Positions 19,978 through 31,773 of a stretch of DNA of 39,510 nucleotides are shown in pieces. Positions within the stretch are counted from its first letter, which is position 1. Every line of letters starts with the position of its first letter. This DNA is from a bacterium (lineage in GTDB: Bacteria > Bdellovibrionota > Bacteriovoracia > Bacteriovoracales > Bacteriovoracaceae), in the NCBI GenBank assembly GCA_030425045.1, contig JAUHVL010000032.1, positions 1 through 39,510 on the forward strand, in the 5' to 3' direction. The notes under the pieces are model-generated. The model was not told where the DNA came from, searched no databases, and saw only the letters and a program-made list of their open reading frames with translations. The position numbers were made by a program, and so were the translations under genes.

Positions 19978-20280
19978 ATGGACCAAAGTTTAAAACGTAT
20001 CAGCCTTTTAATCAGACAAGATCAGTATGACAAGCTGACAGAACAGCATAATATCAACCTGAGCGCGCTTGTTCGCGATTTAATCGATGACCATCTCGGT
20101 GAACATAATATCGTTATTGCTGCCACGGAAGAGTTGAAGAAAATTTACGATACCATCATTACAGACACTGGTAGTAATGATGCTGAAATTGAGAAGTATT
20201 TAAAGATGGCCCTCAAAGAGCTGCTCGCAGAAAAAATTAAGAAAATGAAAAAACTTCAAGCCGATATGGAGAAGTCTTGA
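19978..20280 (+). CDS. Small ribbon-helix-helix-like protein with coiled-coil tail
   Basis: The 100-residue protein starts 'MDQSLKRISLLIRQDQYDKL' and continues 'NINLSALVRDLIDDHLGEH'. This is a basic strand followed by two helices, as in CopG/Arc-type RHH DNA-binding domains. Residues 50-100 form a charged helix ('LAEKIKKMKKLQADMEKS'). It may dimerise and bind DNA, possibly its own promoter, or act as a small partner protein. The stop overlaps the TTG start of the glycosyltransferase gene. An upstream extension to 19924 would run through the promoter and is rejected. Confidence 0.75.
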   Translation: MDQSLKRISLLIRQDQYDKLTEQHNINLSALVRDLIDDHLGEHNIVIAATEELKKIYDTIITDTGSNDAEIEKYLKMALKELLAEKIKKMKKLQADMEKS

Positions 20281-21239
20281 AGATTGTTTTTCAACATGAT
20301 CATCCACTTCCCGTAAAAAAATATGGTGGAATTGAAAGAATTCTTTTTTGGCATATGAAAGAACTAGCGAGAGCTGGTCATGATGTTATTTTAATTGGAC
20401 ACCCCGAAAGTACTGTAGAAAAAGATCAAATCAAACTCATCCCGATGGACGGAAAAGACTGGTATCATCTCATCCCAAAAGATGCAGATATTATTCACCT
20501 TAGTTATAACCATATCGTTCCCTGTGATATTCCCACACTCATTACACTTCATGGCAACGGTCAGCCAGGTGAAATTTTTCCAGAGAATACGGTTTTTCTA
20601 ACTAACAAACATGCCCAAAACCATGGTGGCGATGTTTTTGTTTTTAATGCCCTTGATCTAGAAGAGTACCCTTTTAAAGAAAAAAAACTGAGTTGGGATC
20701 GGTTTCTTTTTTTAGCGAAAGGAAGCTGGAAAGTTAAAAATCTAAAAGACTGTGTCAAAGCAGTAAAGGCCTCACATAAAAAGTTAGAAGTAATAGGCGG
20801 AAGCTCTTTTTTCCCTAAGAAAAATATTAACTATCATGGTTTTCTCGACGGACAAATTAAACTCGATATTATGAATTCAGCTGATGCTCTACTCTATCCC
20901 GTACGTTGGCATGAACCTTTTGGCCTTGCCATTATTGAGGCCATGAGCCAAGGCCTCCCCGCCGTGACAAGCTCTTTTGGTAGCTTTAAAGAACTTATTC
21001 ATGAAGACACGGGAATCATTTGTTCAAATTATCAAGAATTTGAACATACTATCAGAGATAATAAAAAAGAATTTTCTTCTAAAACCATCAGAAACTATGT
21101 TGAAGATAAGTTTGCCATGAGAAAATATTCCGCTGATTATGTCACGCTTTATGAAAGAGTTATTTCAGGAGAAAAACTGCATCAAAAAAAGCTTGGCTGG
21201 GTCCATCAAGATCCTCCCCAAAAGCTCTTAGATTTCTAA
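20277..21239 (+). CDS. Group 4 glycosyltransferase (GT-B fold)
   Basis: The 320-residue enzyme starts with TTG in the overlap TTGA, with GGAGAA upstream. The N-terminal 'QHDHPLPVKKYGGIERI' and 'LARAGHDVILIGHP' are typical acceptor-side motifs. The C-terminal nucleotide-sugar motif is 'HEPFGLAIIEAMSQGLPAV' (E-x7-E) followed by 'GSFKELIHEDTG'. It should transfer a sugar from a nucleotide donor, retaining configuration, to an unknown acceptor such as an envelope glycan. It is shorter than most GT4 enzymes (about 350-400). No other glycan genes are nearby. Confidence 0.87.
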   Translation: MKIVFQHDHPLPVKKYGGIERILFWHMKELARAGHDVILIGHPESTVEKDQIKLIPMDGKDWYHLIPKDADIIHLSYNHIVPCDIPTLITLHGNGQPGEIFPENTVFLTNKHAQNHGGDVFVFNALDLEEYPFKEKKLSWDRFLFLAKGSWKVKNLKDCVKAVKASHKKLEVIGGSSFFPKKNINYHGFLDGQIKLDIMNSADALLYPVRWHEPFGLAIIEAMSQGLPAVTSSFGSFKELIHEDTGIICSNYQEFEHTIRDNKKEFSSKTIRNYVEDKFAMRKYSADYVTLYERVISGEKLHQKKLGWVHQDPPQKLLDF

Positions 21240-21245
21240 AGTTTC

Positions 21246-21369
21246 TTTAGTTTAATAGTCTTATAAGAAGATTCAAATACTACCGAAGTCTAAACTAAAA
21301 CATCCGTGTTTTGCGATAACCAATATCGGGCCATCCTTGTCCCGACCCTTCGGGCAAGTATTGGCCATC
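21246..21369 (+). repeat. Structured repeat, copy A
   Basis: A unit of about 124 nt begins within a few bases of the glycosyltransferase stop. In order it has CTTTAG...TAGTCTTATA; the hairpin AAAACA-TCCG-TGTTTT (21297-21312); then a stem CCAATA/TATTGG (21320-21325, 21359-21364). That stem encloses TCGGG-N10-CCCGA and CCC-TTC-GGG, then CAAGT. Its order and core match the inverted copy at 21402-21523. Confidence 0.75.
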
Positions 21370-21401
21370 TTTTAATTTATAATAGGTTTTTTTGATTTAT
21401 C

Positions 21402-21523
21402 GATGCTCTGAACTTGCCCACGAAGTGGGTGTGACCACGATGGGAGTATTCTGAGCATCAAAAAACATGGATGTTTTTTAATAAACCATGCTGAAGAGGA
21501 ATATAAGACCATTAACTCTAAAG
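21402..21523 (-). repeat. Structured repeat, copy B (inverted)
   Basis: Read on the minus strand it has CTTTAG..TTAATGGTCTTATA, the hairpin AAAACATCCATGTTTT, then an outer stem GATGCTC/GAGCATC enclosing CCA-TCG-TGG and CCCAC-TTC-GTGGG, then CAAGT. The CCATC..GTC..ACCC..TTCG..GGCAAGT core matches copy A, while the outer stem differs completely yet still pairs. Its first bases overlap the 3' end of the kinase gene. The hairpins probably terminate the convergent transcripts. Confidence 0.75.
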
Positions 21524-22459
21524 TTTCTTATTCAAAGTAATTTTTAACGTTGTACCACCGTTCTTAGGTGAGAGAACCTCAACTTCACCACAATGATCTT
21601 TAATAATTCTCATTGCACTTGATAAACCGAGGCCAACACCATCGTCTTTGGTGGTAAAAAAGCGAGTGAAAATTTCCTCTTTATCTTTCTCCGGAATTCC
21701 ATGGCCTGTATCTGTGACGTTTACCACAAACTGACTCTCTTCGGCAGCTTGCTCAGTACTGATCGTTAGCACTTTTTCCGTTGAATTTTTCATGGCATCA
21801 CAAGAATTAGAAATGATATTAGAAAATAATTGTTCAAGAGAATTACGATCGCCATAACATTCAAGTTTCTCTGTGATCGTATTTTTGATTTCAATATTTT
21901 GTGGAATAATTTGATAGGAGAGATCGAAGATACTTCTTTCAATAACTTCTTTAAGATTGGTATCATTTCTATAATCTGTTTCTTTATTTCTTATTTTACC
22001 AAGCTTTGCTGTCATCATTTGAATTCGCTCTGCTGCCGTTTTAATTTTTTCAAAAGACTTGTTTGCTTTTTCATTCTCGGCTAAAAATTCTTTGCTATGT
22101 TTTTCAAACCGATCTGCATGCATAATAATTATCGAGAGAGGATTATTAATATCGTGAGCGATACCGGAAGAAAACTCCCCTACTAATGATATCCTTGTTT
22201 TTTGAATGATTTCTTTTTTCATTTGATCTAAATTATTTTGACTATCGTCCTTTTGATTATTTTTCGTAGAACCTGCTAAAACCTTCGATAGAAAAAGAAA
22301 ACCTAACACAGAGAGGTTCACCAAAAGCAAAATCACAATTGTACTTTTAAAATCGTTTGGATTTAACAAAAGAAGAAATATGGTCTGAACGAATAAAATA
22401 AGAAGGGCCAAGATACTAACGATCTGAATCATTGATAATGACTTAAAAACCTTAAGCAT
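21518..22459 (-). CDS. Sensor histidine kinase, orphan
   Basis: The 313-residue protein has two N-terminal membrane helices (about 10-32 and 40-60) with almost no periplasmic loop. HisKA follows with the H-box 'SGIAHDINNP' (His102 phospho-acceptor), then an HATPase domain with N-box 'IISNSCDAM', G1 'DTGHGI', F-box 'RFFTT' and G2 'GVGLGLS'. No sensory domain or response regulator lies nearby, so signal and partner are unknown. The short loop suggests sensing within or at the membrane. It is divergent from the aminopeptidase gene. The stop lies in a structured repeat. Confidence 0.92.
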   Translation of the reverse strand: MLKVFKSLSMIQIVSILALLILFVQTIFLLLLNPNDFKSTIVILLLVNLSVLGFLFLSKVLAGSTKNNQKDDSQNNLDQMKKEIIQKTRISLVGEFSSGIAHDINNPLSIIIMHADRFEKHSKEFLAENEKANKSFEKIKTAAERIQMMTAKLGKIRNKETDYRNDTNLKEVIERSIFDLSYQIIPQNIEIKNTITEKLECYGDRNSLEQLFSNIISNSCDAMKNSTEKVLTISTEQAAEESQFVVNVTDTGHGIPEKDKEEIFTRFFTTKDDGVGLGLSSAMRIIKDHCGEVEVLSPKNGGTTLKITLNKKL

Positions 22460-24234: not shown

Positions 24235-27200
24235 ATGAAAAAGCTAATTTTGAACAGAGTTCTACAGACAGCTATCTTATCTTCTTTATTCCTTATGGGG
24301 TGTATGCCCGATTCGGTGACAAAATTTAAAGAGGATACTCCAACAAAAGAGACAACTACTTCCTCTTCTAGTGGAAGTAGTAGTTCTAGTGATTCAAGTA
24401 GTGAAACAACATCAACGACAATTACATCATTTAATTATTACCAACAAAATGGTGATCAACTTATTTTAAAATTAAAAGATCCGGATAAACTGGCGGGCTT
24501 CACCGTTGGTGACACACTTTATGTTTCGACAACCTTTCCAGTTGATTCAGGAAAAGGTGAGCTTTCTATTGTCAGTATCGATACTGATCGAAAAGAAATG
24601 TTAGTCAGTATTGCCAGTGCTGGTTCAGGTCTTTTTGTTGAACCAGAAGACTTTATCGATAACTGTGGAACTGGTTTTGCAAGTTGTGCTCTGGGTGCTT
24701 CAAGTGCAGCTGTTATTGAAACAGCATCTTTTTATCTCGATAGAACCGATACCAGTGCCTCTCTAACGAGAACTCCAACAACATCACCAGCTTCAGCATC
24801 TGATTGGGTTTACTCAGTTGATCCCCCAATTGATCTTGGAATGAGTTTTAATACCACAACCGGTGTTATCTCTATGCCCGTTGTTCCTTTTCTCGCTCCA
24901 GAGCTAGAAAATGAAATTTATACTATTACACTTACTAATGGTAATAATGAAACACGTGAAGTATCAATCTCTTTAACTACTTTAAAGTCTAATCAGTTCA
25001 CCCTCGCTTATGACTACTCTGCAAATCAAAGACTTGTCTTAGAGGTTGAGGATGCTTCTGGTTTTAATTTTGACGATGATGTTACTGATGGTAATAATGT
25101 CATTTACTCTTGTACTAGCGAACTCTTTTCAGCTTGTGATGCTGATGACGAGTATGTCGGTATCGGAGAAATTTATTATGTCGATACTTCAACTGACCCT
25201 CATCAAGTCTTTATCTCAATTGATAGTACAGCTGCTCCACCAGCTGACACTGACGCTACAAATGAGAGAGATTTTTATAGTCAATACTATATTCATGCAG
25301 ATGATGGCTCTTTTTCTACTCAGATTTCAGCAGAGCCTATCAGGCTTTTTAACTCAGGCGATACTGTATCTCTGAATGCTACTTTAACTCCTGCCACTGC
25401 TGGTGAAACTTACTCTACCACTCCAGGACTTAGTGATGGACTCGCGATTAACTCATCAACAGGTGAAATAACCAATTCAGGTACCATTGGTTCAAGAGTT
25501 ACTGAAGAAGAAGGACTTATTAGTGTTGTGGCCAAAGATAGTAATGGTCAAACACTAGCATCAAAAAGTTTACGTTTTAGAGTTGTGGATGCACCTACAG
25601 CTTTAAGTTATGAACAACTCTCTCCTATTGAATATATAATTGGTGATGATATTACGAAAAATAAACCAGTCGTTACAGGTCTTCCCGAAGACTCTAAAAC
25701 CGTCTATTACGCAATCGATGCGACTCTACCTTCTGGTTTATCATTTGATGTAACAAAAGGAGAAATAGAAGGTACTCCAGTGGCTTATGATGCAGGGACA
25801 ACCTATACCATTTCTGCTTATCATCCTTTTTCATCTGCGACGACTTTTGATACCTATGCGATGAATATCACCACGGCTTCATCTATAGCCTCGATTTTTG
25901 TCAGACAAGGTCTTGGGGACAAGTTGAGAATTGAAGTAAGTGATATTACGCCATTCTCACTTGGTGAAAATATTTCAACACCAACAGGCGCTCAAGCCTT
26001 GATCGATTATATCGATGTGACAAATAAAGTTCTTTTTGTCACGGTAACAAATGCAGCACTTACGGGAAGTGATGTTTTCAAAAAAGATGACAATATCGAC
26101 AACACGGGAAGTTTTGTTGCTGCGGCAACGGCCATTACCAAAGTTGTTCACGAATTTAAAACAACAGATGATCTCACTGGTGGAATAGCTAGTGATATTT
26201 ACGATAGTGGTGGAAGTGTTGTTTCACTCGTTGGTGCTGAAACTGTATCTTATTCCATTTCTCCGGCCCTACCAACGGATTTAACTTTTAGTGCAGCTGC
26301 AGGAACAATTACAGGCAATAGTGCCTCTGGTCAGTCAATTATGAATGAAACAGAGTACACTATCTCTGTTACCAACGCGATTGGTGAAACTGATTCTGTT
26401 ACTTATAATATGGTGATCTCTGAAACTCCAACCGATGTCAGTGTTGCCTCACTACAATATATTCCTGTTAATGCTGTTTCTAACACAAGGTTCTTTAAGG
26501 GAATGTTTATATCAAGTGAAAATGGTAGTTTTGGTAAAGTTATTGACCTCTACGAAAATGGTTCAGGACAGATTGAAGGGATCTATGCTTTTTTCTCTGG
26601 AACAATTGCCGCCGACGAAGGTATTGATAACGAAACTCCCTACTTCTCTGCTGAAACAACGAAAAAGAACTGGGGATTTGTTTACGTAAGTGCCATCGAT
26701 AATTTTACCGTAAGTGGATCCATTTCTAATACCGATGATATTGCTGGAACGATTTTAGCAATCGCTCCCGAAACAGCTGGTGCCGTGACTGGTCCCGGTA
26801 GACTTTTAGTTGAGTTTGCCGTTGTGGGACAAAGTTTTACCTCTGGTGACTCCGTTGATAACGCTGCTACATTCTCTGCACAGGAGGCTCTCGTTTCGAG
26901 TGTCTCAGATAAACTTGAGGCCAATGTTGTGCTCACCATAGCGGACTCATCGAACTTTCCTATTGGTACCTACGTATCAACGGACTCTGGAGCAGCTAGC
27001 CCAGCGATTGGTCTTGTTGTTTTTAACGATGAGATTAATGAAAAACTCTTTGTCAGAACAATTTCAGGACAGTTTGCCGATGGCGATCTTTTAGATAATG
27101 AAAGAACTCATGATTCAACTGTCGATACTATTGCAACAGTTGAAGCTCTAAATTTAGAACTGACTATTCCAAATGATACAGACCTCGTTGCAGGTGAAAA

Positions 27201-29556
27201 TGCTACTTTCGATTCAGGGGCAACTCATCAAGCAGCGGCTTCTTTTAATTATGATCCAGATACTTCTGATACGGCTTATTTTGTAGAGGTTCATAGTGGT
27301 ATTGTAGAAAATAGTGATACCATTGATGATGCCAATCCTTATGTTGCCTCTGAGCAAACAGTATCACTAGTAGAGCATGACCATCACTTTAAAGGTTATG
27401 TTGGATCTTTTATGACCCTTAATACTTATGTGAGAGGAACGGTCACCGAATACAGTGTTTCTCCTAGTCTTCCTAATGGTCTGACTCTTGATACGGCAAC
27501 AGGATTAATTTCAGGTAGCCCGACAGAGAACAAAACAAGAACAACTTATACGATAACAGCAAGAAATGGTGCCGAGACAGCAACTCATACATTTTCAATG
27601 GCCATTCATTCACAATTTAGAGTGACAAATGGAACCGCCAATACCTCTTCTTATATTTTAAGAAAGCAAGGTCAAGGAAATGAAACCACAAGTTGTCGTG
27701 TTAATAGTATGCAAATTGATGGATCGACAGCACAAGATGGTATTAACGATATCGTTTGTATCATGGACGCTGGTGAAGCCGATTTATTTTACAAAGGTGT
27801 TCAGTTTAATGTCACATCTAGTGCAGGTCTTTGTGAGTATGTTAATTATGAGCCATATTCATTTAACAGATTCCCAGTCCTCACTTCTGCTACGACTTAT
27901 TATGAATTTAGTGGGGATATTTCTGGATGTACTACTTTAACTGGTGACGGAGTATTAACCGCTGCTGCTGGAACTGCAAGTACACTAAACACACCATTAG
28001 TTTCTGGTGATGTAGAAGATAATGGTATTATAACGGCCAATGCTCTTGGAGCTGGTTCGACATTTGAAACAGGAAAAATATATTGTCGCTCTGGAAATGG
28101 TTGTGACTCTAATAATTATAATGAGACAAGTATTCAATGTATTGGTGATCACAGCACAGCAAATTCAGACTTTCCAAATTGTGATGAAGGTTCTACGACG
28201 AAATATATTTACACTATCACAGATGATGGCTCTGGTAATTGTAACTCAGTTTTAACAACCGAAACGACAGACTGTACCGGAACAAGATCGTCGTGTATGG
28301 GTGGTCCTATTCTAGACTCTGGTATTTCTGATGTTACAAGCACAAGTGGAACGACATTATCTGCTTTTACAGGTCTTTCGAATCAAGCTTATACGGTTGG
28401 AGATAGTACTGCTGTGGATACAACTTATGGTTATCTTCCTTCATCAAACGTGTATTGGGCAAACTTCTCTTTTATGGAGGGAATCGCGCTTGATAATAGT
28501 AACTTTATTTTAAATGCCAATAACTGGTCTGCTGCAGAAACAAAGACAAGTGGTGCTGCCACTTTAGGTATCAGTCCGATTGAAGGTCTTAACACGAATA
28601 AGTTTTATACCTACGAATGTCTTGACTCTTCTTTTAACACCAAGGCAAGGATTAGAATTGCCGTAAGAGATTGGGATAGAGACTTCGCACCGAACACAAG
28701 TAATTATAATACTGATGTTTTAGATAATAGCTCAGGCCTAGTCGATGATACATCTAATGAATGTTTTGGTTCGACCTGTGATACGGTTCAAGACTGGGAT
28801 TCATTACCGACAGTGGCCGTAAGTTCAACGCCAGCTGATACGGTTGATATCACTGCTGGCTCTGCTAACGTTTCATCAAATGGTGGCGGAGGAGATTTCC
28901 TAACGTCACTCTTCCCTGGATACGTCTTGAGAATTGATGGAGTAACTTATACCGTTGAGTCTGTAACTGATAATGATAACTTTGTTCTGACAACAAATGC
29001 TCAAACAACGGCCACAGGTGCAACTGTAAATGTCCTACTTGGACGTACACTTGAGTCTGTGCCAGATCTCGATCCTGTTTATGTCGCTTCTTTCACAGCA
29101 AGTGTAACCAATGGAAGTGCAACCATTACAGCAAGTGCAAATGTTACTTCTGAGATTGAAGCAGGAAGTTTAATTAATATCGCAGGATATAGTTATATCG
29201 TCTCTTCAATTGCCGGTGACAACGTCACTGTTACGCTAGAAAGTGATGTTCTTTCAGCGACAGGAGCTGGCCAAGAAGTAAAAATCTATATGGGAACAGG
29301 AGCGGCCATCACTGTCGCAGCAGCTGATACTGTTGACCTCTCAAAAGACTCATCAATCATTACTTCTAATGGTGGTACTGGTAGTTTTACCACTGAAATA
29401 ACTGTCGGGTCTCTTGTTAGTATTGGTGGTGTGATTTACACTGTCAGACAAGTTGATAGCGATGACCAATTTAGAGTGACTGTACCTGCTCCAGCGGCAG
29501 CGACAGGGGCGACGATGACAATTCTTAGAGGGATTCCATTTCCAATGGCGCGCTAA
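24235..29556 (+). CDS. Giant modular surface lipoprotein (1773 aa) with putative-Ig repeats
   Basis: A lipoprotein signal peptide ends in 'LFLMGC' (Cys23), followed by a Thr/Ser linker to about residue 60. The body alternates two module types. One is a He_PIG-like Ig repeat ('LPNGLTLDTATGLISGSP' is the clearest; at least five variants). The other is a beta-rich unit with 'VGDTLYVS...', 'EKLFVRTISGQFADGDLLDN' and similar. A Cys-containing region follows (about 1140-1450). Three tandem ~75-residue repeats end the protein (about 28816-29040, 29078-29302, 29305-29532; core 'GSLVSIGGVIYTVRQVDSDD'). Such architecture suggests a long cell-surface adhesin or fibre; no enzymatic motif is seen. The stop codon lies in the target duplication of the IS element. 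Confidence 0.88.
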   Translation: MKKLILNRVLQTAILSSLFLMGCMPDSVTKFKEDTPTKETTTSSSSGSSSSSDSSSETTSTTITSFNYYQQNGDQLILKLKDPDKLAGFTVGDTLYVSTTFPVDSGKGELSIVSIDTDRKEMLVSIASAGSGLFVEPEDFIDNCGTGFASCALGASSAAVIETASFYLDRTDTSASLTRTPTTSPASASDWVYSVDPPIDLGMSFNTTTGVISMPVVPFLAPELENEIYTITLTNGNNETREVSISLTTLKSNQFTLAYDYSANQRLVLEVEDASGFNFDDDVTDGNNVIYSCTSELFSACDADDEYVGIGEIYYVDTSTDPHQVFISIDSTAAPPADTDATNERDFYSQYYIHADDGSFSTQISAEPIRLFNSGDTVSLNATLTPATAGETYSTTPGLSDGLAINSSTGEITNSGTIGSRVTEEEGLISVVAKDSNGQTLASKSLRFRVVDAPTALSYEQLSPIEYIIGDDITKNKPVVTGLPEDSKTVYYAIDATLPSGLSFDVTKGEIEGTPVAYDAGTTYTISAYHPFSSATTFDTYAMNITTASSIASIFVRQGLGDKLRIEVSDITPFSLGENISTPTGAQALIDYIDVTNKVLFVTVTNAALTGSDVFKKDDNIDNTGSFVAAATAITKVVHEFKTTDDLTGGIASDIYDSGGSVVSLVGAETVSYSISPALPTDLTFSAAAGTITGNSASGQSIMNETEYTISVTNAIGETDSVTYNMVISETPTDVSVASLQYIPVNAVSNTRFFKGMFISSENGSFGKVIDLYENGSGQIEGIYAFFSGTIAADEGIDNETPYFSAETTKKNWGFVYVSAIDNFTVSGSISNTDDIAGTILAIAPETAGAVTGPGRLLVEFAVVGQSFTSGDSVDNAATFSAQEALVSSVSDKLEANVVLTIADSSNFPIGTYVSTDSGAASPAIGLVVFNDEINEKLFVRTISGQFADGDLLDNERTHDSTVDTIATVEALNLELTIPNDTDLVAGENATFDSGATHQAAASFNYDPDTSDTAYFVEVHSGIVENSDTIDDANPYVASEQTVSLVEHDHHFKGYVGSFMTLNTYVRGTVTEYSVSPSLPNGLTLDTATGLISGSPTENKTRTTYTITARNGAETATHTFSMAIHSQFRVTNGTANTSSYILRKQGQGNETTSCRVNSMQIDGSTAQDGINDIVCIMDAGEADLFYKGVQFNVTSSAGLCEYVNYEPYSFNRFPVLTSATTYYEFSGDISGCTTLTGDGVLTAAAGTASTLNTPLVSGDVEDNGIITANALGAGSTFETGKIYCRSGNGCDSNNYNETSIQCIGDHSTANSDFPNCDEGSTTKYIYTITDDGSGNCNSVLTTETTDCTGTRSSCMGGPILDSGISDVTSTSGTTLSAFTGLSNQAYTVGDSTAVDTTYGYLPSSNVYWANFSFMEGIALDNSNFILNANNWSAAETKTSGAATLGISPIEGLNTNKFYTYECLDSSFNTKARIRIAVRDWDRDFAPNTSNYNTDVLDNSSGLVDDTSNECFGSTCDTVQDWDSLPTVAVSSTPADTVDITAGSANVSSNGGGGDFLTSLFPGYVLRIDGVTYTVESVTDNDNFVLTTNAQTTATGATVNVLLGRTLESVPDLDPVYVASFTASVTNGSATITASANVTSEIEAGSLINIAGYSYIVSSIAGDNVTVTLESDVLSATGAGQEVKIYMGTGAAITVAAADTVDLSKDSSIITSNGGTGSFTTEITVGSLVSIGGVIYTVRQVDSDDQFRVTVPAPAAATGATMTILRGIPFPMAR

Positions 29557-29562
29557 TTTTTT
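29554..29562. repeat. Left 9-bp target-site duplication of the IS element
   Basis: TAATTTTTT directly abuts the left inverted repeat and is repeated exactly at 30563-30571. Its first three bases are the stop codon of the giant lipoprotein gene. Confidence 0.88.
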
Positions 29563-30562
29563 AAAACTGCTGGAGCTAATTGGATACAGAACAGTTGAAA
29601 ATGGAAGGTCTTTTCACTCCATCAATCCTTTGATTGTGATAAAAAGAATAGATATGAAGTAGGTCTAGAAGTCTTTCTATTTTTTTAGTCGTACACCACG
29701 TTCTTCTTGTTAGTCTTTTGATATTGTCGCGAATCATTGCAGCTGTTTGATTGAGGCAAAATAGCGGATCAAAACCGCCTTTTTTCATTTCACCTTGACC
29801 AATAATAGCAGATTTTCTTCCTTTAAAAGTCATATGTTTTACTTGCTTAAAATATCGCCTAATTTGATTTGGATAATGATGTGATTCATCACTGAAAAAG
29901 GTGGCATGAGGACAAGAGATCCTTTTTAAATGCCTAAACAATCTATTTAATGCTTTCTTTCTTTCACATTTTCTAAAACCATATTTCTTTTTACTGATTT
30001 GCGCTAAATGCCCCTTAGCTGCTATTTTACCGACATCTACGAATAGAATACGCCTAGTTCTTTTTTCGACTGCTAATGGAATCGTTAATGGTTTAAGTTT
30101 GGTATGCTCAAAGGTTTCCATCTCATCAAAAACAACTTCAGATACCGTTGATGTAAAACTTCTTAAGTGTTTTTTTGCACAAATTCCAAAACGCGTAATT
30201 CTTCTTGCAATCGTTTGTGGGTCAACTGCCAAAACATGGGCACAGCCTTTTTGAGACATACCTTTAGCTAGCATTCTAAAAACTGACTGATTGATTCTTC
30301 TTTTTCTCAACCGATAATCAAAAGAACTTGTTTGTGTAGAAAAATCTCTACCACAGTTGCGACAATTGAAGCGTTGAATTTTTAGACCATCTGAAGCTCT
30401 AATATAGAAACCACGCTTAACGATATCCGTATTAAAATGACAATGAGGACACATACTTACTCCTTTAGATAAAAGAAATAAGATTTAACTTTTAAGTTTT
30501 TAAAATGATTTAACTATCTATTAATAGTTCTTTTTTGATATCCAATTAAAGCCAGCAGTTTT
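29563..30562 (-). mobile_element. IS1-like insertion sequence, 1000 bp
   Basis: The element is bounded by 24-bp inverted repeats (29563-29586 and 30539-30562). Both begin AAAACTGCTGG and end TAATTGGATA, differing only at positions 12-14 (21 of 24 identical). It is flanked by 9-bp direct repeats TAATTTTTT. Size, repeat length and 9-bp duplication fit the IS1 family; IS1595 is a less likely alternative (8-bp duplications). The single transposase gene is intact, so the element may still be active. It sits exactly between the convergent lipoprotein and ampG genes. Confidence 0.93.
29576..30454 (-). CDS. IS1-like transposase, single ORF
   Basis: The 292-residue protein starts at an ATG with a strong AAAGGAG. 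An N-terminal zinc ribbon has two CxxC pairs ('CPHCHF' and 'CRNCGRDFS'), then a helix-turn-helix region ('GMSQKGCAHVLAVDPQTIAR'). A DDE-type catalytic domain has likely acidic residues in 'FDEMETFEH' and 'FFSDESHHY', and 'RLTRRTWCTTKKIERLLDLL' near the end recalls IS1 InsB. IS1 of E. coli makes InsAB' by frameshifting, but here both parts are already one frame. The stop codon lies inside the left inverted repeat. No frameshift or stop interrupts it. Confidence 0.9.
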   Translation of the reverse strand: MCPHCHFNTDIVKRGFYIRASDGLKIQRFNCRNCGRDFSTQTSSFDYRLRKRRINQSVFRMLAKGMSQKGCAHVLAVDPQTIARRITRFGICAKKHLRSFTSTVSEVVFDEMETFEHTKLKPLTIPLAVEKRTRRILFVDVGKIAAKGHLAQISKKKYGFRKCERKKALNRLFRHLKRISCPHATFFSDESHHYPNQIRRYFKQVKHMTFKGRKSAIIGQGEMKKGGFDPLFCLNQTAAMIRDNIKRLTRRTWCTTKKIERLLDLLHIYSFYHNQRIDGVKRPSIFNCSVSN

Positions 30563-31773
30563 TAATTTTTTTCAGACCAGGGAACGATTTTAAACAATAA
30601 AATCATCCCTGGGATGGCAATCAACGTACAAAAGATAAAAAAGAACCACCAACCCCATAACTCAGCGAGATAGCCTGTTGGTGCCGAAAGAATCGTTCTT
30701 GGGATTCCAATTAAACTGGTTAAAAGAGCATATTGAGTGGCCGTAAACTTCTTATTGGTTTGTGTCGCCATATAAGCGAGAAAAGCCGCTGTCCCCGTCC
30801 CCCCAGTGAAGTTTTCAAAACCGATGATAAAAGAAAGCCAACCAAGGTGAGGTCCCGTACTGACAAGAATTGAAAAGCATGCCGTTGATATGGCCTGAAG
30901 AAAACCAAAAATATAAAGACATTTCGAGATCCCTAATCTCAAAGTTAGCGCTCCCCCTACCGCCATACCAATAAGATTAGAGGCAAGCCCAGAGCCTTTG
31001 GCCACCACTCCAATTTGTGTTTTGGTAAATCCAATATCTTGATAAAAAGGCATCGTCATCGCCGAGGCCATGGTATCCCCTAGCTTATAAAAAAGAATAA
31101 AAAGCAAAATAAGTAGTGATCCATGACGAGAAAAGAACTCACTAAATGGATCTATCACCGCCTCTTTAAAACTAGAAGGCGCTTGCTCTGTAACACTTGG
31201 CTCTTCTACCCAAAGTGTGGTGAGCATGGCAGGAATCATCGCTAAGGCCATAATAAAATAAACACTTCGCCAGCTTATTTGATCGGCCAAAATAAGAGCA
31301 CCTGAAGAAGATAAAATCATGGCAATTCGATAGCCGTATACATAAAGTGTCGAGCCTAACCCTAATTCTTCATCTTCTAAATACTCTCTTCTAAAAGCAT
31401 CAATGACGATATCCTGACTAGCTGAAAAGAAGGCCACTAAAACGGCAACAATAATGAGACCTGTTAAATGACTTTGAGGATTGAATAGGCCCATAGAAAA
31501 AATACTGAGACTAAGAAGAATTTGCGTTGCCATCAACCAACCTCTTCTTCTTCCTAAGATGACAAAACCGAATCGATCAAATAAAGGCGCCCAAACAAAC
31601 TTCCAAGAGTAAGGCATACCCACAAGGGTAATCAGGCCAATATTAACTAAGCTCACACTAGAATCTTTTAACCACGCTTGTAATGTCGACATGGTGAGAA
31701 GTAGAGGAAGCCCACTGGCATATCCCATAAGAAAACAAACGAGCATTTTTTTGGAAAAGATTTTTGTCAACAT
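30562..31773 (-). CDS. ampG: AmpG-type muropeptide permease (MFS)
   Basis: The 403-residue MFS protein has 12 or so hydrophobic helices. Its opening is typical of AmpG: 'FLMGYASGLPLLLTMSTLQA', then 'GMPYSWKFVWAPLFDRFG', 'GRRRGWLM' and 'ASQDIVIDAFRREYL'. AmpG imports anhydro-muropeptides for cell-wall recycling. In a predator it could also import prey peptidoglycan fragments, which is inference. The last base of its stop TAA (30562) is contributed by the IS end; before insertion the stop would have been TAG. No Shine-Dalgarno is evident before the ATG. Confidence 0.92.
   Translation of the reverse strand: MLTKIFSKKMLVCFLMGYASGLPLLLTMSTLQAWLKDSSVSLVNIGLITLVGMPYSWKFVWAPLFDRFGFVILGRRRGWLMATQILLSLSIFSMGLFNPQSHLTGLIIVAVLVAFFSASQDIVIDAFRREYLEDEELGLGSTLYVYGYRIAMILSSSGALILADQISWRSVYFIMALAMIPAMLTTLWVEEPSVTEQAPSSFKEAVIDPFSEFFSRHGSLLILLFILFYKLGDTMASAMTMPFYQDIGFTKTQIGVVAKGSGLASNLIGMAVGGALTLRLGISKCLYIFGFLQAISTACFSILVSTGPHLGWLSFIIGFENFTGGTGTAAFLAYMATQTNKKFTATQYALLTSLIGIPRTILSAPTGYLAELWGWWFFFIFCTLIAIPGMILLFKIVPWSEKN
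30563..30571. repeat. Right 9-bp target-site duplication of the IS element
   Basis: TAATTTTTT, identical to 29554-29562, directly outside the right inverted repeat. It encodes the end of AmpG on the minus strand. Confidence 0.88.

Follow-up and report, generated by a model that had tools for sequence, protein, structure and literature searches.

The window analyzed here, a stretch of 39,510 nucleotides from a genome of the Bacteriovoracaceae (G000 below), contains a glycosyltransferase group 1 gene on the forward strand (20277-21239) that converges upon a sensor histidine kinase gene (HisKA, HATPase_c) on the reverse strand (21518-22459). Between the two lie inverted blocks of approximately 120 nt (21246-21523), which an earlier note described as two copies of a structured repeat. 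The order of parts given there, TCTTATA, an AAAACATCC[G/A]TGTTTT hairpin and a CCATC..GTC..ACCC..GGGCAAGT core, was confirmed in both blocks, and the outer stems (CCAATA/TATTGG and GATGCTC/GAGCATC) do differ in sequence while each is able to pair. For the core pattern CCATCNNNGTCN{5,30}GGGCAAGT, the window contains two matches, compared to none in 100 shuffles. Relative to dinucleotide shuffles, the folding energies of the two full halves gave z values of -4.0 and -5.0, and those of the 75-78-nt modules within them, on either strand, ranged from -2.6 to -5.2.

The blocks themselves are thus real; they are not, however, dispersed copies that face each other by chance, but the two arms of a single small mobile element. 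A 13-nt direct repeat, TCTAAAGTTTCTT, stands at both outer edges (21235-21247 and 21517-21529), these being its two occurrences in the window, so that the pair resembled a single insertion, a view that the other copies in the genome support. As delimited by alignment to other copies, terminal inverted repeats and the flanking direct repeats, the whole element comprises 273 nt (21246-21518), each end being placed to within about 2 nt (21246/21248 on the left, 21516/21518 on the right). Its left terminal inverted repeat, TAGTTTAATAGTCTTATAA (21248-21266, forward strand), has diverged from the family end YAAACTGATnnnCTTTAATTGG, and its right counterpart (21500-21518, reverse strand) reads GAGTTAATGGTCTTATATT as the reverse complement. 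Under the target rule derived from other copies, the presumed 9-bp target duplication is TAAAGTTTC on the left (21237-21245) and occupies 21519-21527 on the right. The glycosyltransferase gene ends in a TAA that lies inside the left direct repeat and supplies the first bases of the left duplication, and the element is inserted at the stop codons of the two convergent genes. The copy in the window is of a minority type with about ten members (at least 83% identity to the window copy), and its own ends have diverged.

A reading of the element as a known RNA was set aside: Rfam 15 gave no family match in the window at gathering score, and a search with the element returned four matches only (E 0.79 to 3.6), none of them near the gathering score. 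The CsrB and RsmY families were absent both from the gathering-score matches of the window and from the four matches of the element at E <= 10.

A miniature element with IS1-like ends

Exact matches to ACATCCRTGTTTT numbered 26 in the 3.97-Mb genome compared to 0 for the reversed pattern, and among them were six inverted pairs at 160-162 nt and three matches (L012, L013 and L026) without the core. A DNA search for the core recovered at least 42 copies (40 of 101 candidates scored), and from the fetched loci 59 copies of the element were mapped in this genome, this being the number left after 7 opposite-strand doubles and 1 split row were removed from 67 raw rows. The genome searches scored few candidates per genome (40, 7, 37 and 13 by search), and hence the counts of copies and of genomes reported here are lower bounds. 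A further copy, outside the 59, was seen at C36:34424. Thirteen contig ends of the assembly fall inside copies (C38, C52, C55, C64, C65, C66, C69, C70, C71, C73, C76, C86 and C89), indicating that the repeat limits the assembly and that more copies are likely.

The 29 copies that were complete, of the 59, measured 291-346 nt, with 19 of them at 315-325 nt. Short length, high copy number and the lack of a transposase gene inside are the marks of a miniature inverted-repeat transposable element (MITE). The terminal inverted repeats YAAACTGATnnnCTTTAATTGG gave 42 pattern matches at up to 3 mismatches, with 0 for the control. Among the 29 complete copies, left and right flanks compared over 9 nt had a mean identity of 0.74, and over each of the other lengths from 3 to 14 one of 0.25-0.40; a 9-bp duplication with at least 7 of 9 positions matching was present in 19 of the 29, compared to 3.2% of mismatched pairs. 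The first end finder misplaced the right end in some copies (e.g., C13:8473), thereby lowering this count, and a second end finder detected the duplication in 25 of 33 copies. The target consensus, TAANNNTTA, was recovered from left flanks alone (45 copies) and from right flanks alone (42 copies); pooling of both flanks would force a palindromic consensus, and the one-sided flanks gave the same sequence. On 13 of the 62 sides with a gene end, the duplication opens precisely with the stop codon of the neighboring gene (12 TAA, 1 TGA). As called with a simple longest-ORF caller, the gene context of the 59 copies was convergent for 26, tandem for 16 and divergent for 3, with 0 inside an open reading frame and 14 at contig edges. 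In a compact genome, such placement at gene 3' ends can be produced by target choice together with the removal of harmful insertions.

The window also contains a complete IS1-like insertion sequence (29563-30562), the ends of which (AAAACTGCTGGnnnTAATTGGATA; at their full extent AAAACTGCTGG...TAATTGGATA) are related to those of the MITE, although the 5-nt spacer within them differs. It is flanked by the 9-bp target duplication TAATTTTTT on the left (29554-29562) and right (30563-30571), the left copy of which starts with the TAA stop of a 1773-aa Ig-domain open reading frame (24235-29556); target duplications of this length are typical of IS1. Its transposase (P0001; 292 aa; 29576-30454, reverse strand) found IS1 as the best family model, and a transposase search of the genome matched the same reading frame at 63% identity. 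The IS1 model scores of P0001 and of three relatives, L124, L177 and L129, were 64.4, 63, 54.8 and 29.5 bits, respectively; with the curated cut-off set at 100, the transposase is called IS1-like and not IS1. The longer relatives L129 and L124 encode a transposase of approximately 300 aa. Genome contigs yielded 152 transposase relatives, of which the 80 kept were from Bdellovibrionota-type or proteobacterial records, plus one bacterial record. A second, truncated IS1-like transposase with 39% identity to the query begins contig C85 of this genome (L137, positions 1-280).

The same end pattern recurs among the 129 genomes of the family, where many of the matches are no more than chance would give, the controls of many genomes having 1-2 as well. 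In stretches fetched from related genera, 13 paired short elements of 156-227 nt were found to have the same ends and other interiors (L116-L118, L120, L121, L125-L128, L130, L131 and L135), with two sites only 68 nt apart (L123) not counted as an element. Four of the 13 have an exact 9-bp duplication, e.g., AAAGGTTTA and AAAGAGGTT. At L125, two copies stand in tandem with TTCCCTTTA before each.

The element is therefore a non-autonomous transposable element, a MITE whose ends are those of a divergent family of IS1-like elements, and that the feature in the window is one copy of such a MITE is a firm result in its own right. It resembles the MITEs of bacterial insertion sequences in being short, non-coding and present in many copies, in its terminal inverted repeats and target-site duplication, and in the presence within the same genome of a transposase with related ends; it departs from them in carrying two conserved modules of the CsrA type described below, and the family of the related transposase falls short of the curated cut-off for IS1. 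The earlier note's suggestion of a REP-like element holds only loosely. REP, BIME and REPIN sequences are likewise intergenic palindromes with two inverted hairpin units, whereas the element has terminal inverted repeats, 9-bp duplications and multi-stem units of 75 nt; given the 9-bp duplications, the REP reading was set aside.

The structured modules and their strand bias

Each half of the element is a structured module of about 75 nt, and the two halves are homologous. The proposed fold is a three-way stem followed by a hairpin, H1, with the two modules of an element running in opposite directions. In the window, the left module (21297-21371; 101 bits, found on the forward strand with model R1) would be an RNA of the reverse strand, and the right module (21400-21477; 89.1 bits, found on the reverse strand with model R2) one of the forward strand. 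The covariance model of the left half finds the right half of the window copy (34 bits, E 4.8e-5) and that of the right half finds the left (45.9 bits, E 9.3e-8), and hence the halves are alike in both structure and sequence.

The 59 copies provided 55 left and 51 right halves, the rest being cut, mostly by contig ends; the filter for halves used the loop letters loosely. Identical rows were dropped for alignment (42 of 55 left and 47 of 51 right kept), as was a right half from which an internal stretch is deleted (C59:99544). Pairing was maintained in 93.7% of cells in the 42 distinct left halves and in 95.8% in the 47 distinct right halves. Both partners of a pair had changed in 14 and 30 cells (left and right, respectively), compared to 1.6 and 6.4 in shuffles, and 0 of 500 shuffles reached these values. 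Two other measures did not exceed shuffles: further pair types (reached by 323 and 500 of 500 shuffles for left and right halves, respectively) and, for the right halves, the count of both-sided pairs (225 of 500). When 31 modules of five genomes were merged into one alignment, 13 pairs proved to be changed on both sides, amounting to 97 cells compared to 30 in shuffles and at most 32 in slid structures; this alignment (A5) was fitted to the structure model of the left half and hence leans towards that structure. The structure was hand-written from the sequences and then scored, and so fits them by construction; the shuffles, the slid structures and the asymmetry between strands serve as controls. 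RNAalifold recovered the P1 stem from the right halves, and from the left halves gave a different structure that was without both-sided changes. Copies within one genome share ancestry and are not independent events, their mean column identity being 90-91%. Together, the many further copies and the covariation support the earlier proposal of a dispersed palindromic element selected for its structure, and what would have spoken against it, a lack of other copies and of stable stems, was not encountered: 59 copies were mapped, the two covariance models match each other's halves, and the folds lie below shuffles.

The two strands of a module are not equivalent. On the outward-reading strand, which carries GGA in the H1 loop, G-U pairs occupy 130 cells in 18 columns, whereas the opposite strand has them in 5 cells, spread over 4 columns. 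Four columns account for 110 of the 130, and 66 other mismatches fit neither strand; with three added stem positions left out, the comparison becomes 49 to 5. Read on the TCC strand, as in the earlier note, the same wobble-type mismatches become 130 cells of A-C and 5 of G-T. P1 is an 11-bp helix on the GGA strand, with G-U as its fourth pair in 39 of the 42 left and 26 of the 47 right halves. Given this asymmetry, the outward-running GGA strand of each half was taken as the RNA. Against this choice, it is the TCC strand that has the more significant fold in both halves of the window copy (z -3.8 vs. -2.6, and -5.2 vs. -3.7), and the minimum-energy fold of its left module on the GGA strand differs from the family fold in that hairpin P2 is not formed; H1 is present in the folds of both window modules.

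CsrA-type loop sites and a proposed working of the element

In many bacteria, CsrA governs motility, metabolism and changes of lifestyle, and is itself restrained by sponge RNAs. In Campylobacter, the restraint is described as being exerted by an mRNA (PMC4894983). Apical hexaloops of the type CANGGANG are given in the same source as high-affinity targets of CsrA/RsmE (PMC4894983), and hairpins of this kind are stated to come generally in pairs (PMC4383904).

On the GGA strand, H1 reads AAAA-C-A-N-G-G-A-N-G-UUUU. Among 89 distinct modules, three or four different letters occur in its two N columns, and each of the other columns has at most 3 exceptions. By their letters, the loops C-A-N-G-G-A-N-G thus match the high-affinity site of CsrA/RsmE. 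A strict CANGGANG (or CAGGANG) loop site closed by C-G is found in H1 of 106 of 106 modules in this genome. Written as CA[N]GGANG, the site occurs in the H1 hairpin of every module (55 of 55 left, 51 of 51 right) and in P2 of 52 of 55 left and 3 of 51 right modules; the opposite strand has it in 0 of 106. Left modules accordingly have two sites 29-32 nt apart in 52 cases and right modules mostly one (two in 3 of 51), and each of the 50 copies that retain both modules presents one or more CsrA-type sites per strand. The GGA strand of the modules had 161 occurrences of CA[N]GGANG in 8,083 nt, compared to 21 in the 78,420 nt that both strands of the window provide outside the element. Genome-wide, AACA[N]GGANGTT had 134 matches (33 for the reversed control), and 78 of the first 100 listed were inside elements. 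In the window copy, the left module presents CACGGATG in the H1 loop (21301-21308) and CAAGGATG in hairpin P2 (21332-21339, where the minimum-energy fold differs), both on the reverse strand, and the right module presents CATGGATG on the forward strand (21466-21473) in the H1 loop of AAAACATGGATGTTTT (21462-21477).

The genome has a canonical csrA gene (contig C34, 112020-112178; 91 bits). Among the 12 module-bearing genomes, the only ones covered by the survey, a csrA match was found in 11, 10 of them over the cut-off and one (G017) a fragment at a contig end; it was not found in G106, which is 84% complete. In the csrA leader of this genome (L184:1300-1800), CAGGATG occurs upstream of the start codon and, judged from its letters, is likely an autoregulatory CsrA site.

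In view of the observed transposition history, conserved structure, strand bias, loop motif and presence of csrA, the element is best read, with a probability of roughly 0.7, as a MITE with two outward-facing CsrA-binding RNA modules that would provide flanking mRNAs with CsrA-binding 3' untranslated regions (UTRs), its copies serving to titrate or place CsrA. Since the modules point outward and each strand has a site, an mRNA read through from either side should end in such a hairpin. The mRNAs of flanking genes would thus run into the element and terminate in a 3' UTR capable of binding CsrA, and the approximately 60 copies would together titrate CsrA, place it on the mRNAs of flanking genes, or both. 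Each copy would in effect be a mobile 3'-end tag and the sum of copies a distributed sponge, through which decoy or control sites for CsrA may become spread around the genome; the binding, the transcription of the element and its effect are here inferred.

Placement at gene ends also suits a bidirectional transcription terminator or read-through insulator, a role compatible with CsrA binding. With 26 convergent, 16 tandem and 3 divergent copies, 14 at contig edges and 0 of 59 within a reading frame, and with an A-rich and a U-rich arm to H1, the terminator proposed among other roles in the earlier note has some appeal. It is nevertheless unlikely: a consensus scan returned 0 sites (a weak test, shuffles averaging 0.4), the usual H1 stem has one G-C pair, and a terminator would need no CANGGANG loops with two free positions. 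For the RNA stability module also suggested in that note, the loops hint at a narrower role, namely probable CsrA binding. Comparably improbable is a neutral hitchhiker, i.e., an inherited palindrome kept by recent spread and devoid of present function. The copies are highly similar (90-91% mean column identity), as such a history would have it, whereas the compensated changes (13 both-sided pairs among 31 modules of 5 genomes) and the near fixation of the loop letters around two variable loop positions are contrary to it.

The preferred reading, a MITE supplying CsrA-binding 3' UTRs, has partial parallels among known systems. Like CsrB, CsrC, RsmY and RsmZ, the element has GGA in hairpin loops, several sites per RNA and, mostly in its left modules, paired sites; it differs from them in being a repeat dispersed by transposition and not a single dedicated gene, in having 1-2 sites per strand and copy, and in its lack of an Rfam match. 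The flaA leader of Campylobacter jejuni, as described in PMC4894983, likewise has two adjacent ANGGA hairpins, 21 nt apart compared to 29-32 nt in the element and thus close in both, and titrates CsrA from an mRNA, as is proposed here; flaA, however, has them in the 5' leader of one gene whereas the element is transposable and 3'-located (PMC4894983). In the literature collection searched, papers containing both CsrA and Bdellovibrio had neither term in title or abstract; no transposable element, REP, insertion sequence or MITE carrying CsrA sites was reported in the titles and abstracts displayed, no MITE paper was returned for Bdellovibrio, and no such element for insertion sequences of Bacteriovorax.

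The module in other genomes and on other mobile elements

With the merged model, the module was detected in at least 8 of 129 genomes of the family (E <= 0.01) and at least 12 of 368 of the phylum (E <= 0.001). For the 11 other genomes, with one module taken from each, the strict site is kept in H1 of 10 and in P2 of 8, figures favored by search models that reward the loop letters. Compensated stem changes were found in some of them (e.g., AAGAC/GTCTT in G235 and AGAAC/GTTCT in G236), and in three (G130, G106 and G022) the minimum-energy fold is not that of the family. In G000, G052 and G054, the module sits just inside IS1-like ends. That it might be a standard part of the IS1-like family was rejected: it is absent from 79 of 80 IS1-like transposase loci, and models R1 and R2 found no match, nor was a module seen, in the insertion sequence at 29563-30562. 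The one locus of the 80 that has it is in G235, where the module is in an IS1-like element behind the transposase gene and in the same reading, so that the transposase mRNA itself would be expected to carry it.

In G099 and G017, the module instead lies beside IS110-type transposase genes (L140, L141, L145, L162 and L166), which it follows with its GGA strand antisense to the gene; at L140 and L141 it begins 0 and 6 nt after the transposase stop codon. The 3'-UTR model does not explain this arrangement.

Occurrence in transposable elements of two families would suit hairpins that act as DNA, whether as a cruciform or as a single strand, for a transposase or for replication and without any RNA role, and most positions of the helices do keep pairing on both strands. 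This is quite improbable, as a DNA role predicts no G-U asymmetry between strands whereas the wobble-type mismatches favor the GGA strand by 130 to 5, and 79 of 80 IS1-like transposase loci manage without the module. Least credible is that the MITE acquired the module from the guide RNA (seek or bridge RNA) of IS110/IS1111 elements, for although the modules 0 and 6 nt past the transposase stop in G099 and G017 are on the side usual for the non-coding RNA of IS1111, the proposed RNA strand is antisense to the transposase gene, G235 has its module in an IS1-like element, and no homolog of the IS110-type transposase was found in the window's genome (one query, an uninformative search).

Returning to CsrA, a broader form of the preferred reading, with slightly less than even odds, is that a transposable element has become a genome-wide CsrA sponge, with some sixty copies at 3' ends and sites on either strand that would involve dozens of host mRNAs, such that transposition rewires the CsrA network of one lineage within the Bdellovibrionota and the unrelated IS1-like and IS110-type elements both use the module. 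If so, a mobile repeat that spreads CsrA sites would be a new way to build or disturb a post-transcriptional network and would provide a reason for a selfish element to keep an RNA structure. The finding also offers a testable handle on CsrA in the Bdellovibrionota. Among the IS110-type copies of G099, one is interrupted by an insertion of about 1.1 kb (L148:2877-3980), the open reading frame of which resembles another transposase and is presumably IS630-like.
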